The position numbers were made by a program, and so were the translations under genes. A stretch of DNA of 64,000 nt from Geitlerinema sp. PCC 7407 (GTDB taxonomy: Bacteria > Cyanobacteriota > Cyanobacteriia > PCC-7407): positions 4,348,934 to 4,412,933 of the forward strand of contig NC_019703.1 of the NCBI RefSeq assembly GCF_000317045.1. The letters run 5' to 3'. Shown here piece after piece: positions 20 through 10,048 of the stretch. The first letter of the stretch is position 1. Every line of letters begins with the position of its first letter. The notes under the pieces are model-generated. The model ran no database searches. It was given only the letters and a program-made list of their open reading frames with translations, and was not told the origin of the DNA.

Positions 20-50
20 GGCTCAAGGAATATAAACCTTGGGCCGTTTT
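20..50 (+). terminator. Rho-independent terminator of a gene upstream of the window
   Basis: A 9-bp stem (GGCTCAAGG against CCTTGGGCC, one G-T wobble) closes an 8-nt AT-rich loop and is followed by GTTTT and a second T run. It lies ahead of the first gene and probably ends a plus-strand transcript that begins outside the window. Confidence 0.6.
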
Positions 51-207
51 GGCGTTTAAACGCGTCAACCAGCAGCAGCAAAAGTCGGCAAATTTTCGGC
101 CCTGGGCAGTAGGTGAAGGGTCAATAAAGTGCGACGGATTGGTGATCCGAAGTGGAGCACCTGTTATTACACTTTTTAAATCGCGAGAAGCTTTGAGGTC
201 CTCCGGG

Positions 208-1395
208 ATGAAGATTCTAGTACTGACCTGGGAGTTTCCTCCTCGGATTGTGGGGGGCATCGCGCGTCATGTGGCTGAGCTCTACCCTGAGCTGGTGAAG
301 CTGGGGCACGACATTCATCTGATGACCGTGGAATTTGGGGAGGCGCCGCTCTACGAGGTCGTGGAGGGAATCCATGTCCACCGGGTGCCGGTGGGGCCGA
401 GTGAGAATTTTTTCCACTGGGTTGTCAATATGAATGAGAGTATGGGGCTCCACGGCGGCAAGCTGCTGCTGGAGGAAGGCCCGTTTGACATCATTCATGC
501 CCATGATTGGCTGGTGGGGGATGCGGCGATCGCCCTCAAGCATACGTTTAAGGTCCCTCTGATTGCGACCCTGCACGCGACGGAGTTTGGACGCTACAAC
601 GGCCTTTACAACGACACCCATCGCTACATTGCGGGCAAGGAGCGGGAGCTCGCTTTCAATGCCTGGCGCGTCATTGTGTGTACGTCGTATATGCGCCAAG
701 AGGTCGGGCGAGCGCTGCACACGCCCTGGGCAAAGGTCGATGTGATCTACAACGGCATTCGGGCTGAGAAGAAGAAGCGCCAGTACGATTTTGATTACTG
801 GCGTTTCCGGCAGCGCTACGCCGAGGACGGCGAGAAGATTTTTTATTATGTGGGCCGGATGACCTACGAGAAGGGGCTGTCTGTGCTGCTGGCGGCGGCG
901 CCCAAGGTGATTCAGGAGATGCACGGCTACGCCAAGCTGGTGATCATTGGGGGGGGCAACACGGACGCGCTGCGGCGGCAGGCCTGGGACCTGGGCATCT
1001 GGGACAAGGTGTTTTTCACCGGTTTCATGCCAGAAGAGGATCTAAATCGCTTCCAAACGGTGGCGGACTGCGCGGTGTTTCCTAGCTTGTATGAGCCCTT
1101 CGGCATTGTGGCGCTCGAGAGCTTCGCGGCGCGGGTGCCGGTGGTGGTGTCGGATACGGGCGGCTTCCCGGAGGTGGTGCGCCACACGAAAACGGGGGTG
1201 GTGACCTGGACCAATAACGCGGATTCTTTGGCTTGGGGCATTCTGGAGGTGCTGAAGAACCCCGACTATGCGCAGTGGCTGGTGGACAATGCCTATGAGG
1301 AGCTGGATCGGCGGTTTCGCTGGAGTGACTTGGCGCGGCAGACGGAGGCGGTCTATGAGCGGGTGTTTCAGGAGCGATCGCAGACAGCCTGGTAG
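208..1395 (+). CDS. Glycosyltransferase family 4 (GT-B fold)
   Basis: Predicted retaining glycosyltransferase of 395 residues that would move a sugar from a nucleotide-sugar donor onto a glycan or lipid acceptor in the cytoplasm. The N-terminal half opens with a glycine-rich Rossmann strand (LTWEFPPRIVGGIARHV), as in glycogen-synthase-like GT4 enzymes. The C-terminal half carries YVGRMTYEKG and the E-x7-E motif in EPFGIVALE, which binds the donor. The ATG at 208 is chosen because MKILVLTWEFPP is the normal start of this family and GAGG lies about 9 bases upstream. The frame stays open for another 53 codons upstream, but that extension looks non-coding. Substrate is unknown. No neighbouring polysaccharide gene helps to define it. 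Confidence 0.88.
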   Translation: MKILVLTWEFPPRIVGGIARHVAELYPELVKLGHDIHLMTVEFGEAPLYEVVEGIHVHRVPVGPSENFFHWVVNMNESMGLHGGKLLLEEGPFDIIHAHDWLVGDAAIALKHTFKVPLIATLHATEFGRYNGLYNDTHRYIAGKERELAFNAWRVIVCTSYMRQEVGRALHTPWAKVDVIYNGIRAEKKKRQYDFDYWRFRQRYAEDGEKIFYYVGRMTYEKGLSVLLAAAPKVIQEMHGYAKLVIIGGGNTDALRRQAWDLGIWDKVFFTGFMPEEDLNRFQTVADCAVFPSLYEPFGIVALESFAARVPVVVSDTGGFPEVVRHTKTGVVTWTNNADSLAWGILEVLKNPDYAQWLVDNAYEELDRRFRWSDLARQTEAVYERVFQERSQTAW

Positions 1396-1514: not shown

Positions 1515-4049
1515 ATGGAGCACGCTGAGCGCATTCGTTGGCTGCGAGAGTTTACGCTGTTTGGCTCGCTGGCGGAGGAACCCCTCAGTGCGATCGCCGC
1601 TGCTGTTGAGGCGGAGCCAATCCAGCCCAACCGCCGTTTGGTGATGGAGGATGCCGCTAGGCCCGATCTGCTGATCTTGCGGACGGGTCACTGGGAGAGC
1701 TACCACACCGCTGAAAGTAGCGCTGTCAAGGGAGTGAGCCTGCTGCCGGGCAGCGTCGTCCATCTGAAGGAGCTGCTGCTGGAGCGTCCGGCATCGCAAA
1801 CGGTGATCACCCTGGATGCAGGGGAGCTGTGGCGGGTGCCGCGAGAAGCGTTTCTGGCGATCGCGACGGCCCATCCAGAGATTGGCCGGACATTTTCCCA
1901 GCGGCTGGCGGCGGAGCTAGAGCAGGTGTCGTCCCAGCTGGCCTACGAGCAGGAGCGACAGGGAATTTTGCGGCCCTATGTGGTGCCTAAGGTGAGCCGG
2001 GGCATTATTGGCACCAGTCGCTATGCGAAGCGGCTGCGCGACGCGATCAATAAGGCTGCGGGCGATCGCCAGCCGGTGCTGATTTTTGGCGAACCGGGCC
2101 TAGGCAAAGACAACGCAGCGGCGCTGATTCACTTTGGATCGCGCGATCGCCGAGAGCCGCTGATCAAGGTGAATTGCGACACCCTCCAGACTAGCGGGGC
2201 AGAGCTGTTTGGCCGAGTGGGCGGCAAGCCCGGTCTGCTAGAGGCGATCGGCCGGGGCACGTTGGTCCTCAATAATTTGCAGGAGCTGCCGGAGGTCCTC
2301 CAGGACAAGATTTGGCAGCTGCTGAAAACCGGCGAGTACTCTCTGGTGCGGCGGGATACCGACGGCGAAGCGCCCCGCCGCCGGACCGAGGCGCGCCTGA
2401 TCCTGACCGCCGAAAAGGCTTTTCCCCAGCTCGATCGCCAAAAGCTGCTCGGGCACAGCATCAAGGTGCCGCCGCTGCGGGTCCGCAAGGCGGACATCGA
2501 GGCGCAGGTGGGCTACTACCTCAGTCTGTTTTGTCGCAAAAAAGGGCTGGCGCGGCCGCACCTGACGCCCGAGGCCGTGCGCCGTCTGCAAAGCTATGAT
2601 TTTCCGGGCAACCTGACGGAGCTCGAAAGCCTGATCGAGCGGGCCTTGCTCCAGTCCGACAACCCCAATGAGCTGACCGATGAGCTGTTTTGGTCTGCGA
2701 GCACCAAGGGGCGACAGTTCCGGCTCAATTTGCTCAATACCTACCCGGCCCTGCGCCGATTTTTGCGCAGTCCCTGGTGGCCCGATCGCCTCAACTATGG
2801 CTTCACGCTGACGGTGTTTGCCCTGGTGGTGGCGGTGCTGATCCTCGGCCCCCAAACGCGCGATCGCAACGTTGCTCTCAATCTCTTCTGGGCCTGGTGG
2901 TGGCCTCTGGTGTTGATCAGCTTTCCCTTTGTGGGGCGGCTGTGGTGCGCCGTGTGCCCCTTCATGATTTACGGCGAGCTGATGCAAAAGCTGTCCCTCA
3001 AGCTTTTTCCCCGAGACCTATTGCCCTGGCCTCGGCAAATGGCCGACAAGTGGGGCGGCTGGTTTCTCTTTGGGCTGTTTGTGCTGATTTTGCTGTGGGA
3101 AGAGCTGTGGAATCTGGAAAACACGGCCTATCTGTCGGCCTGCTTGCTGCTGCTGATCACGGCGGGGGCGGTGATTTTTTCCCAGCTGTTTGAGCGGCGA
3201 TTTTGGTGCCGCTATCTGTGCCCTATCGGCGGCATGAATGGCCTGTTTGCCAAGCTGTCGATCGTTGAGCTGCGCGCCCAGCAGGGCATTTGCTCAGCGA
3301 GCTGCACCACGTATCAGTGCTACAAGGGCGGCCCCGAGAAGGGGGAGGGCCAGGAGACCAACGGCTGTCCGGTGTACTCTCACCCGGCTCAGCTCACGGA
3401 CAATCGCAACTGCGTGATGTGCATGACCTGCCTCAAGGCGTGCCCCCACCGCTCGGTGGAGCTAAATCTGCGTCCCCCCGGCATCGAGCTGTGGACAACC
3501 CATACGCCGACGGCCTATGAGGTGTCGCTGCTGTTCTTGCTGTTTGGGGCGGTGCTGCTCCATCGGCTGCCGGAGATCACGGCGGCGCTGGGGCTGGAGC
3601 TGCCGCTAGAGAACTTTGCGGTGCATGCGGGGGTGTCGGTGCTGGCGCTGGCGCTGCCGGGGGCGATCGCCCTGTTGGCCCACGGCGCTGTGCGTCTTTT
3701 CAACCGCCATTTTCGGCCCCGGCCCTTTGTGGAGCTGGCCTACGGCTATTTGCCTTTGGTCCTGGGCAGCAGCTTGGCCCACTACCTGCGCCTGGGCCTG
3801 ACGGAGGCTGGGCGCATCATTCCGGTGTCGGTGGCGACCGTGGGCCTGGAAGGGGCTGGGCTGCCGGTGGCGGTGGCTCACCCGGCGGTGGTGGCGTTTT
3901 TGCAGGGGGTCACGCTGATCGGGGCGGTCTGGCTGAGCGTGATTTTGACGCAGCGCATTGCCCGCCAGTCCCTGGGAAGTCTGCTACCCCAGCATTTGGC
4001 GCTGGTAGGGCTGGGGGCGCTGTGCTGGCGCGTGATTGTCGGCTTGTAG
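1515..4049 (+). CDS. Fusion: cNMP-binding-like sensor + degenerate NtrC-type AAA+ + membrane polyferredoxin (NosR/NapH-like)
   Basis: An 844-residue protein with three parts. Residues 10-135 resemble a cyclic-nucleotide-binding (CRP-type) beta-roll. Residues 160-395 resemble the sigma-54 activator AAA+ domain, with Walker A GEPGLGKD at 192-199 and the R-finger-side helices (LTPEAVRRL, YDFPGNLTEL). Residues 430-844 form a polytopic membrane domain with CxxC-P pairs at C478/C481 and C565/C569, further cysteines at 593, 597, 602 and 618, and a classical 4Fe-4S set at C633, C636, C639 and C643. GAFTGA is absent (GGKPG stands in its place) and the Walker B acids DE are replaced by NN. There is no C-terminal HTH. 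The protein is therefore unlikely to activate sigma-54, a factor cyanobacteria lack. A redox-sensing or electron-transfer role is inferred. It stands alone between unrelated genes. Confidence 0.85.
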   Translation: MEHAERIRWLREFTLFGSLAEEPLSAIAAAVEAEPIQPNRRLVMEDAARPDLLILRTGHWESYHTAESSAVKGVSLLPGSVVHLKELLLERPASQTVITLDAGELWRVPREAFLAIATAHPEIGRTFSQRLAAELEQVSSQLAYEQERQGILRPYVVPKVSRGIIGTSRYAKRLRDAINKAAGDRQPVLIFGEPGLGKDNAAALIHFGSRDRREPLIKVNCDTLQTSGAELFGRVGGKPGLLEAIGRGTLVLNNLQELPEVLQDKIWQLLKTGEYSLVRRDTDGEAPRRRTEARLILTAEKAFPQLDRQKLLGHSIKVPPLRVRKADIEAQVGYYLSLFCRKKGLARPHLTPEAVRRLQSYDFPGNLTELESLIERALLQSDNPNELTDELFWSASTKGRQFRLNLLNTYPALRRFLRSPWWPDRLNYGFTLTVFALVVAVLILGPQTRDRNVALNLFWAWWWPLVLISFPFVGRLWCAVCPFMIYGELMQKLSLKLFPRDLLPWPRQMADKWGGWFLFGLFVLILLWEELWNLENTAYLSACLLLLITAGAVIFSQLFERRFWCRYLCPIGGMNGLFAKLSIVELRAQQGICSASCTTYQCYKGGPEKGEGQETNGCPVYSHPAQLTDNRNCVMCMTCLKACPHRSVELNLRPPGIELWTTHTPTAYEVSLLFLLFGAVLLHRLPEITAALGLELPLENFAVHAGVSVLALALPGAIALLAHGAVRLFNRHFRPRPFVELAYGYLPLVLGSSLAHYLRLGLTEAGRIIPVSVATVGLEGAGLPVAVAHPAVVAFLQGVTLIGAVWLSVILTQRIARQSLGSLLPQHLALVGLGALCWRVIVGL

Positions 4050-4489: not shown

Positions 4490-5662
4490 TCAGCTTTTTC
4501 GGCCCTGGAGCCAGTAGGTCTGCATGTCGCCACGTCCCTTGACCGCGATCGCCCCCCGCGACTCCAGTTCGAAGTGCTCCTTCAGGCGATCATAGGTTTC
4601 GTGGGTGACCTGGATGCCGCCCGCAGCGCCCTGGGACTCCATGCGGCTGGCAATATTCACCGCGTCGCCCCACAGGTCATAGATAAACTTTTTCAGACCG
4701 ATCACCCCCGCCACCACGGGGCCGGTACTAATCCCAATGCGCAGCTGAAACAGCTCGCCATCGTCGCGCCGAAACTGTTTGATGGCCTGCTGCATGTCGA
4801 GGGCCATGTGGGCGATCGCCTCCACGTGGTCGCTGCGCGGCACCGGAATGCCGCCCACGGCCATGTAGGCGTCGCCAATGGTTTTGATTTTCTCGAGGGC
4901 GTAGCGATCGGCGAGCTGGTCAAAGGCCGAAAAAATCTCGTTGAGCAGATCTACGAGCTCCGTCGGCGAGATGCGGGCCGAGAGCCCCGTGAAATCGACA
5001 ATGTCTGAGAACAGGATCGTCACATCCTCAAAGCGCTCGGCGATCGCCCCTTGGTTTTGCTTGAGCTTGGCCGCGATGGGCTGGGGCAAAATGTTGAGCA
5101 GCAGCTTCTCCGATCGCTCCTGCTCGGCCCGCAGCGATCGCTCCGCCTGCTTGCGCTTCGTGATGTCCCGCACGATCAGCAGCGCCTCCTCCGGCCCCGC
5201 CGCCACCACCCGCGCCTCATAGTCTCGAGGAGCCGATCGCAGCTGTAGCTGATATTCAAAGGCCTGAGTCTCCCCCGTCCGAATCGCCCGCCGGGTCGCA
5301 TGCACATACTGCTGAGCCAGCTCCAGCGGCAGCACCTCGTACACGCTCTTGCCGACGCGATCGCTCTCGGTGACCAGCTCAATATTTTTTGCCTGGATGA
5401 AATCTAGGTAAATGCCCCCCGAGTTCAGCCGCACAATCAAGTCCGGCACCGCCTCCAGCAGCGCCCGATTGCTGCGCTCCGTCGCCTGCAGCGCCGCCGC
5501 CAGCTGGTCGCGATCGCCCTCGGCCTTCTCTTGCAGCTCCCGCGTCTGGGCCAGCTGCTCCCGGAGCGCAGCATTTTCAGCCTCCAGCGCCTGCACCTGC
5601 GCCATCCACGGCGCCGCAGTCACCGACGCCCCCTGCTCCTGAAAATCGGAATGATTGGTCAT
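4490..5662 (-). CDS. PAS domain-containing class III adenylate/guanylate cyclase
   Basis: Signalling enzyme of 390 residues expected to make cAMP or cGMP. After a coiled-coil-rich N-terminus (about residues 20-65) comes a PAS domain (about 70-185, with AVPDLIVRLNSGG), then a linker ending in LLLNILPQPIA and the catalytic domain. The metal-binding aspartates are in FSDIVDFTG. KTIGDAYMAVGG and WGDAVNIASRM supply the purine-binding Lys and Asp, which suggests ATP as substrate. The ATG at 5662 is preferred because GGAG sits just upstream. A GTG at 5797 would add 45 residues of arginine-rich sequence that does not resemble a domain. It is divergent from hemC. No transmembrane segment is visible, so it is probably cytoplasmic. 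Confidence 0.88.
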   Translation of the reverse strand: MTNHSDFQEQGASVTAAPWMAQVQALEAENAALREQLAQTRELQEKAEGDRDQLAAALQATERSNRALLEAVPDLIVRLNSGGIYLDFIQAKNIELVTESDRVGKSVYEVLPLELAQQYVHATRRAIRTGETQAFEYQLQLRSAPRDYEARVVAAGPEEALLIVRDITKRKQAERSLRAEQERSEKLLLNILPQPIAAKLKQNQGAIAERFEDVTILFSDIVDFTGLSARISPTELVDLLNEIFSAFDQLADRYALEKIKTIGDAYMAVGGIPVPRSDHVEAIAHMALDMQQAIKQFRRDDGELFQLRIGISTGPVVAGVIGLKKFIYDLWGDAVNIASRMESQGAAGGIQVTHETYDRLKEHFELESRGAIAVKGRGDMQTYWLQGRKS

Positions 5663-5869
5663 AAGCTCCGCTCTAGAGCGCGTATTCGGAGACTTTTGGT
5701 TTGCTTGCTGCCCATTGTGGCCTGAGGTTTCCGATCGCGCCAACAGAAGCGGCAAAATCCGCCTGCGGCCTCGATTTGCCTCCCCAAAATTGCTCACTCA
5801 CGAGCGTCCCCCGCTACGGTACCCTGGAAAGAGTGTCTTTAAGATCCTTGATTTCAAATCGCGAGCCCT

Positions 5870-8754: not shown

Positions 8755-8900
8755 CAGCGCTTCCCCGATAGACCCCTCGTCCCTCGCTCCTAGCCCGTCC
8801 ACGAGTGACATACTCCTACACCGATACTGACGTATACGGTGCAGGCTTCTCAGTGACCCCTGGTAACCCATCGGGCGTATCCTGAGCTTTATTGACGGAA
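8755..8900 (-). ncRNA. Possible omega/reRNA of the TnpB element
   Basis: TnpB nucleases of the IS200/IS605 superfamily use a guide RNA that covers the 3' end of tnpB and the right end of the element, with the guide supplied by flanking DNA. The stretch here is GC-rich and able to fold. This placement rests on knowledge of the family, not on a recognised RNA sequence. The exact ends are arbitrary. Confidence 0.3.
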
Positions 8901-10048
8901 TGCCCTACCGCCAAAGACTTGATGTTGATCGCTGCATTGTGGTCACGGTCCATCGTCAGCCCGCACTCAGGACAGGTATGAATCCTGTCCTGAAGTATTT
9001 TAGGCACCTTGACCCCGCAACCAGAGCAGTTCTGAGACGTACCGCTGGGATTCACTTCAATCGTTAGCAACCCGGCTCTTTCAGCCTTGATTGCCAGAAT
9101 TTGCAGGAATTGACCCCAACCAGCATCGTGAGTTGACTTTGCCAGTTTGCTCCTGGCAATGCCTCGAATATTCAGCTTTTCATGAGCAACATGATTTCCT
9201 TTGGATAAAAGCTTGTTTGCAACCTTGTAGTGAAAGTCTTTTCGCTGGTTCGAGACTTTCAGGTGTGCTTTGGCCACTCGTTTAATCGCCTTTTTCCGAC
9301 GCTTGGAGCCTTTTTTCTTGCGTGAAAGACTGCGCTGCAACCGTTTTAGGCGCTTTTCAGCTTTGCGGTAGTGCTGGGGGATGGGTTCTTCTTGCCCTGT
9401 GTCATCTACCAAGAACGACTTCAAGCCCAGATCAATCCCAGTCGTATTTTCAAGGCTTGGAGCATCAGGTGTGAGAACAGGGACTGATGAATCCTCCAAG
9501 CTCAGAGTCACATACCAGCCATCGACTTTGTAGCTGACGGTGGCAGTCTTGATCCTGAAGCCTTCTGGTAAGGGACGGTGCTGAATCAGTTTTACCCAAC
9601 CAATCTTGGGGAGATTGATCTGTTTGCCCTGGATGCAGTCTTGCTTTGCTTGCGGGAAGGTGAAGGAGCGATAGCGGCCTGCCCCTTTAAAGCGAGGTCT
9701 ACCGCTTCGCTTGCCGTTGCAGTCTCCTTTGAGCCAGCGGTCAAAGGTCTTTTTGACCCGGCCAATGCAGTCTTGCAGAACTTGAGAGTGAATCTGCTGG
9801 TACTCCGGGAACAGTGCCTTGGAGTTGACCAGGTCTCGTTTCTGGGAGTAGAAGTCAGGATTTTCTCGCAGTTCTGGCAGATGACAGATCAGCGGGCAGG
9901 CGTTGATGTCACAGCGGTTTTGCTCATACCAAGAGAACCGCTCACCAAGACGGTAGTTGTACTGTCTGCGCAAGAGTTCCAGCCATTCGCTCATCAAGGC
10001 GACTTGACGGGAGGTTGGACGCAGTCGGTACTGGTAAGCAGTTCTCAC
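8816..10048 (-). CDS. tnpB: RNA-guided endonuclease TnpB / OrfB transposase-accessory protein
   Basis: A 410-residue TnpB, the ancestral relative of Cas12 nucleases. The N-terminal helix-turn-helix-like OrfB region is present (YQYRLRPTSRQVALMSEWL). The RuvC residues are all present: D206 in GIDLGLKS, E290 in HEKLNIRG, and D367/D369 in DRDHNAA. The zinc ribbon is intact with C341, C344, C359 and C362. A basic stretch at 225-265 is likely to bind nucleic acid. Start is a GTG at 10048, since the upstream ATG reading meets a stop after two codons. No frameshift or internal stop is visible, so the protein may be active. Confidence 0.93.
   Translation of the reverse strand: MRTAYQYRLRPTSRQVALMSEWLELLRRQYNYRLGERFSWYEQNRCDINACPLICHLPELRENPDFYSQKRDLVNSKALFPEYQQIHSQVLQDCIGRVKKTFDRWLKGDCNGKRSGRPRFKGAGRYRSFTFPQAKQDCIQGKQINLPKIGWVKLIQHRPLPEGFRIKTATVSYKVDGWYVTLSLEDSSVPVLTPDAPSLENTTGIDLGLKSFLVDDTGQEEPIPQHYRKAEKRLKRLQRSLSRKKKGSKRRKKAIKRVAKAHLKVSNQRKDFHYKVANKLLSKGNHVAHEKLNIRGIARSKLAKSTHDAGWGQFLQILAIKAERAGLLTIEVNPSGTSQNCSGCGVKVPKILQDRIHTCPECGLTMDRDHNAAINIKSLAVGHSVNKAQDTPDGLPGVTEKPAPYTSVSV

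Follow-up and report, generated by a model that had tools for sequence, protein, structure and literature searches.

A FesM-type membrane iron-sulfur protein of Geitlerinema sp. PCC 7407 with degenerate CRP-like and NtrC-like domains

Architecture and identity of the fusion protein

What can a single protein do that joins a CRP-type domain, an NtrC-type AAA+ domain, and a membrane polyferredoxin, and is such a protein new? The gene lies at positions 1515 to 4049 of the window, the whole stretch of 64,000 nucleotides from Geitlerinema sp. PCC 7407 that was analyzed, and encodes a FesM-type protein of 844 amino acids in one open reading frame on the forward strand, to which the coordinates of its domains and motifs below also refer. 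A CRP/cNMP-binding-type domain (1623 to 1865, residues 37 to 117; PF00027, 31 bits versus a cut-off of 27.5), whose CRP-like strands and helices are present in the AF2 model, is followed by an NtrC-type AAA+ domain (2004 to 2420, residues 164 to 302; PF00158, 59.6 bits), an AAA+ lid domain (AAA_lid_14, PF25601; 2478 to 2666, residues 322 to 384), and a membrane domain (2775 to 4043, residues 421 to 843); the protein also matches Fer4_5 (PF12801, 36.1 bits versus a cut-off of 22). The AAA+ part aligns with VpsR, NifA, PspF, and NtrC1 in a PDB sequence search, and Foldseek matches the whole-protein AF2 model to the structures of NtrX, NtrC1, and PspF. Together with the Pfam domains and the orthologues, these matches establish that the three-part fusion noticed in the preliminary description is real and has the coordinates given here.

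To call it a new chimera would nevertheless be wrong, as the protein is already known, named, and widespread. In Synechococcus (Picosynechococcus) sp. PCC 7002, the membrane iron-sulfur protein FesM is reported (Xu, Liu, and Zhao 2005, Plant Physiol 138:1586) to be needed for cyclic electron flow around PSI, and its loss is reported to impair this flow and photoheterotrophic growth (both as cited in PMC9003380). In the genus-mates PCC 7117 and PCC 7003, which were recognized by 100% plasmid matches and serve as stand-ins for PCC 7002, a single full-length orthologue of the PCC 7407 protein (59 to 60% identity; 59% over 844 residues for PCC 7117) is the only long match in each genome, and it is the sole Fer4_5-type membrane protein in these two genomes, as its counterpart is in PCC 7407. 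By elimination through these genus-mates, the PCC 7407 protein should thus be the FesM orthologue; the case from sequence is strong but not direct. Few cyanobacterial proteins have been tied by genetics to cyclic electron flow around PSI; FesM is one of them, yet it is scarcely mentioned in the literature searched, where just two papers cite the 2005 work.

The PCC 7407 gene is a single-copy orthologue; full-length orthologues occur in 200 of the 291 sampled genomes of the class, the genome collection holds 393 confirmed loci, and phylum-wide hits all fall within the same class. About 30% of the sampled class genomes, small marine ones included, lack FesM, which is therefore not essential for all cyclic flow; two genomes of the class (G004 and G016) have no Fer4_5 protein at all, and some members of the class can thus do without the family.

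The membrane iron-sulfur half and its proposed role

About nine membrane helices are predicted from the AF2 model and hydropathy, and the positive-inside count (22 versus 3 Lys/Arg) places the N terminus and all predicted clusters on the cytoplasmic side. The full CxxCxxCxxxCP set reported in the preliminary description, at C633 to C643, is accompanied by 10 further cysteines in the membrane half, in line with the "at least eight" counted there, and 8 of these 10 are invariant. In our family alignment of 137 homologues (100 rows of FesM, 10 of short forms, and 27 of the sister clade FesM2), 12 cysteines are conserved in 137 of 137: C478 and C481 at the end of TM2 (CxxCP, 2946 to 2957), C565 and C569 after TM4 (CxxxCP, 3207 to 3221, in line with Fer4_5), and C593, C597, C602, C618, C633, C636, C639, and C643 in a soluble polyferredoxin loop (3291 to 3443). 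The membrane cysteine motifs and the CxxCxxCxxxCP motif of Fer4_5 membrane proteins are thus both present.

For the membrane half, the AF2 model reaches a pLDDT of 74 but falls under 50 in the poorly modeled cluster loop, and it matches no PDB structure at an E value of 0.001 or below. By sequence, residues 472 to 650 match NapH/MauN (TIGR02163) at a sub-threshold 50 to 52 bits, versus an NCBIfam cut-off of 213. As in NapH/MauN, CxxCP and CxxxCP occur in the membrane part and a 4Fe-4S loop lies on the cytoplasmic side; unlike NapH/MauN, the protein carries extra C-terminal membrane helices and a fused regulatory half, and it scores far under the family cut-off. In Deinococcus ficus, a 4Fe-4S membrane protein that stands alone (WP_027463891.1) is about 33% identical over the whole membrane half and keeps all 12 cysteines and H756, but it is without the cNMP and AAA+ half; the membrane module therefore also exists without the regulatory half.

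We consider it probable (about 0.78) that the protein is a FesM orthologue acting as a NapH-like membrane polyferredoxin that supports cyclic electron flow, with a front half of structural or docking function. Such a polyferredoxin would be anchored in the photosynthetic membrane, and its 12 cysteines at the cytoplasmic face would suffice for up to three [4Fe-4S] clusters. Low-potential electrons might pass from the acceptor side of PSI (ferredoxin) to the plastoquinone pool, a path with presumed partners, and FesM would thereby support cyclic flow, a role that goes back to the 2005 report as cited in PMC9003380. The CRP fold and the NtrC-like AAA+ half would form a structural or docking module that is neither an active ATPase nor a transcription factor. 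The preliminary description had suggested a membrane redox sensor or electron carrier gated by a small molecule or by nucleotide binding; its carrier part fits the role reported for FesM.

The degenerate front half and competing explanations

FesM reportedly contains a cAMP-binding-like domain. In the PCC 7407 protein, the CRP-type fold is accompanied by a degenerate phosphate-binding cassette (1749 to 1808, residues 79 to 98): aligned to 4ava, the cassette Glu is replaced by Leu84 and the Arg by Ala93, and residue 84 is Leu across all common orthologue variants in the family alignment. The cyclic-nucleotide-like sensor proposed earlier retains its CRP-type fold, but its sensing of cNMP is doubtful.

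The AAA+ part has likewise lost key residues. Walker A (2088 to 2111, residues 192 to 199) reads GEPGL(E/G)KD in the family and GEPGLGKD in PCC 7407; it had been described as kept, which is true of Gly and of Lys (K198 is invariant in 137 of 137 homologues), but the Mg-phosphate-binding Ser/Thr is replaced by Asp199 in 99 of the 100 FesM rows, and in 62 of them the Gly before Lys is gone as well (GEPGLEKD). The loss of the Walker B acids is seen at residues 253 and 254 (2271 to 2276) in the PDB sequence and family alignments, with Asn-Asn in 96 of the 100 FesM rows. GAFTGA, also noted as lost, is replaced by an 8-residue deletion relative to NifA, and because the L1 loop is deleted, the motif sought in the 137 homologues is found in none. 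The sensor-II Arg is mostly replaced. Given these changes, both regulatory domains appear to have kept the fold but not the chemistry that normally goes with it, and the regulatory half is, by its residues, more degenerate than the preliminary description supposed. This class-wide demonstration of degenerate ATPase and cNMP sites beside constant cysteines is new here and, with the class-wide spread, defines clear residues to test.

An ATP- or cNMP-gated electron carrier, in which the AAA+ part would bind nucleotide without hydrolysis and so switch electron flow, could draw on the invariance of K198 and on the GTGKT loop found in 27 of 27 FesM2 rows. We regard it as unlikely, since in FesM proper position 199 is Asp and Gly197 is also lost in many members, Walker B is Asn-Asn, and neither Glu nor Arg remains at the cNMP site. 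Gating by a small molecule or nucleotide, as originally suggested, is unsupported for this protein: key residues are missing from each of the two ligand sites, and several lineages have no cNMP domain.

These lineages include 10 loci with a FesM form that has no cNMP domain and no cNMP match nearby; the membrane-domain tree indicates at least three such losses, with the pseudo-AAA+ part retained. Five cNMP-less forms (L182 to L186) belong to one family of small-genome cyanobacteria (f2). In another variant, seen in one genus, a single frame of 1,121 amino acids (L107, 6143 to 9505) holds two tandem copies of the AAA+ part (query residues 1 to 396, then 128 to 842), and similar long frames (1,134 to 1,137 amino acids) occur in three genomes of one genus. 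Across the FesM sequences examined, the pseudo-AAA+ and membrane parts are never separated; taken with the cNMP losses, this would be easier to explain if the AAA+ part is structural than if the CRP part is a sensor.

The same variants bear on a membrane redox sensor, whose clusters would report the redox state and whose CRP/AAA+ half would pass the signal on to transcription or a partner. The sensor-like order of the domains (cNMP fold, AAA+, redox domain) and the retained P-loop Lys speak for it, but the Pfam matches include no DNA-binding domain, the residues for AAA+ hydrolysis and cNMP binding are lost, and the redox domain kept all of its cysteines where the cNMP domain disappeared; we find this reading improbable.

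No conserved neighborhood was seen across 99 FesM loci, so genomic context yields no function for FesM, and operon logic was rejected on this ground. In the window, a gene for a PAS-class III adenylate/guanylate cyclase (4490 to 5797, reverse strand) is convergent with fesM; no relative of it was found at the other FesM loci examined, so this adjacency was dropped as evidence and the cyclase was rejected as a ligand source. Upstream lies a family-4 glycosyltransferase gene (49 to 1395, forward strand), and the same neighbor, 67 to 78% identical, is near fesM at at least five other loci. An open reading frame at 8816 to 10048 (reverse strand) resembles an IS605-type TnpB, judging by the CxxC...CxxC motifs in its translation. 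A NosR/NapH/CcoG-like auxiliary, supplying electrons with which another enzyme is matured or its metal reduced, has in its favor that NapH/MauN is the best, sub-threshold, family for the membrane half; it is very unlikely, since the score is 52 bits versus a cut-off of 213 and FesM has no conserved neighbor enzyme.

In its AAA+ core and lid fold, the protein resembles bacterial enhancer-binding proteins of the NtrC family, among which VpsR gives the top sequence match in the PDB, but it differs from them in the deleted GAFTGA loop, the Asp of Walker A, the Asn-Asn of Walker B, the mostly replaced sensor-II Arg, and the absence of a DNA-binding domain. The PCC 7407 genome also contains no sigma-54 gene (PF04552, rpoN), as the preliminary description had expected, whereas the same search was positive in four known control genomes. 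That description took homologues in which Walker B and GAFTGA are intact as evidence for an ordinary activator; they were sought among the 137 and none was found. With Walker A and B degenerate in essentially all orthologues, the AAA+ part cannot do its usual sigma-54 job. Despite the Pfam Sigma54_activat match, an ordinary sigma-54 activator is rejected with near certainty by the GAFTGA, Walker A/B, and rpoN results.

The FesM2 sister clade

A separate clade, FesM2, is about 40% identical to the PCC 7407 protein and occurs in 37 of the 291 genomes; in the membrane-domain tree it forms one side of a branch with an SH-aLRT of 100, a value to be read with a long-branch warning. To our knowledge, this sister family is unnamed. 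Its P-loop is intact, but the same 27 rows have lost the Walker B acids wholly or in part and contain no GAFTGA. At 20 of 26 FesM2 loci (L099 to L102, L129, L130, and L162 to L181), cysK follows the FesM2 gene in the same orientation, in many cases within about 40 bases; in contrast, only 4 of 99 FesM loci have a cysK-like gene of any kind in the surrounding 5 kb or so. Genes for Rieske petC, psbA, and rhodanese are near seven FesM2 loci each, and those for SQR-like flavoproteins and cydB near four each.

Polysulfide is reported to induce psbA, petC, and cysK2 in PCC 7002 (PMC12466478), which makes the grouping of psbA, petC, and cysK near FesM2 plausible; the terms searched in that paper gave matches that did not include FesM. 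The neighboring genes (cysK, psbA, petC, rhodanese, and SQR-like) suggest that FesM2 is a sulfide-linked version of FesM. Tentatively, FesM would be a pseudo-AAA+ electron carrier, and the separate, P-loop-intact FesM2, usually by cysK and sometimes near extra psbA, petC, or sulfide genes, might provide a dedicated photosynthetic electron route under sulfide, a proposal that we hold to be possible rather than probable. The clade, also new here, offers a handle on cyanobacterial electron rerouting in anoxic, sulfidic settings.

A phage or plasmid origin was rejected, as the phage hits listed are AAA+ matches only and full-length plasmid copies number just two, both FesM2, in Pseudanabaena and Aulosira. 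One FesM2 member (L103) is split into two frames.
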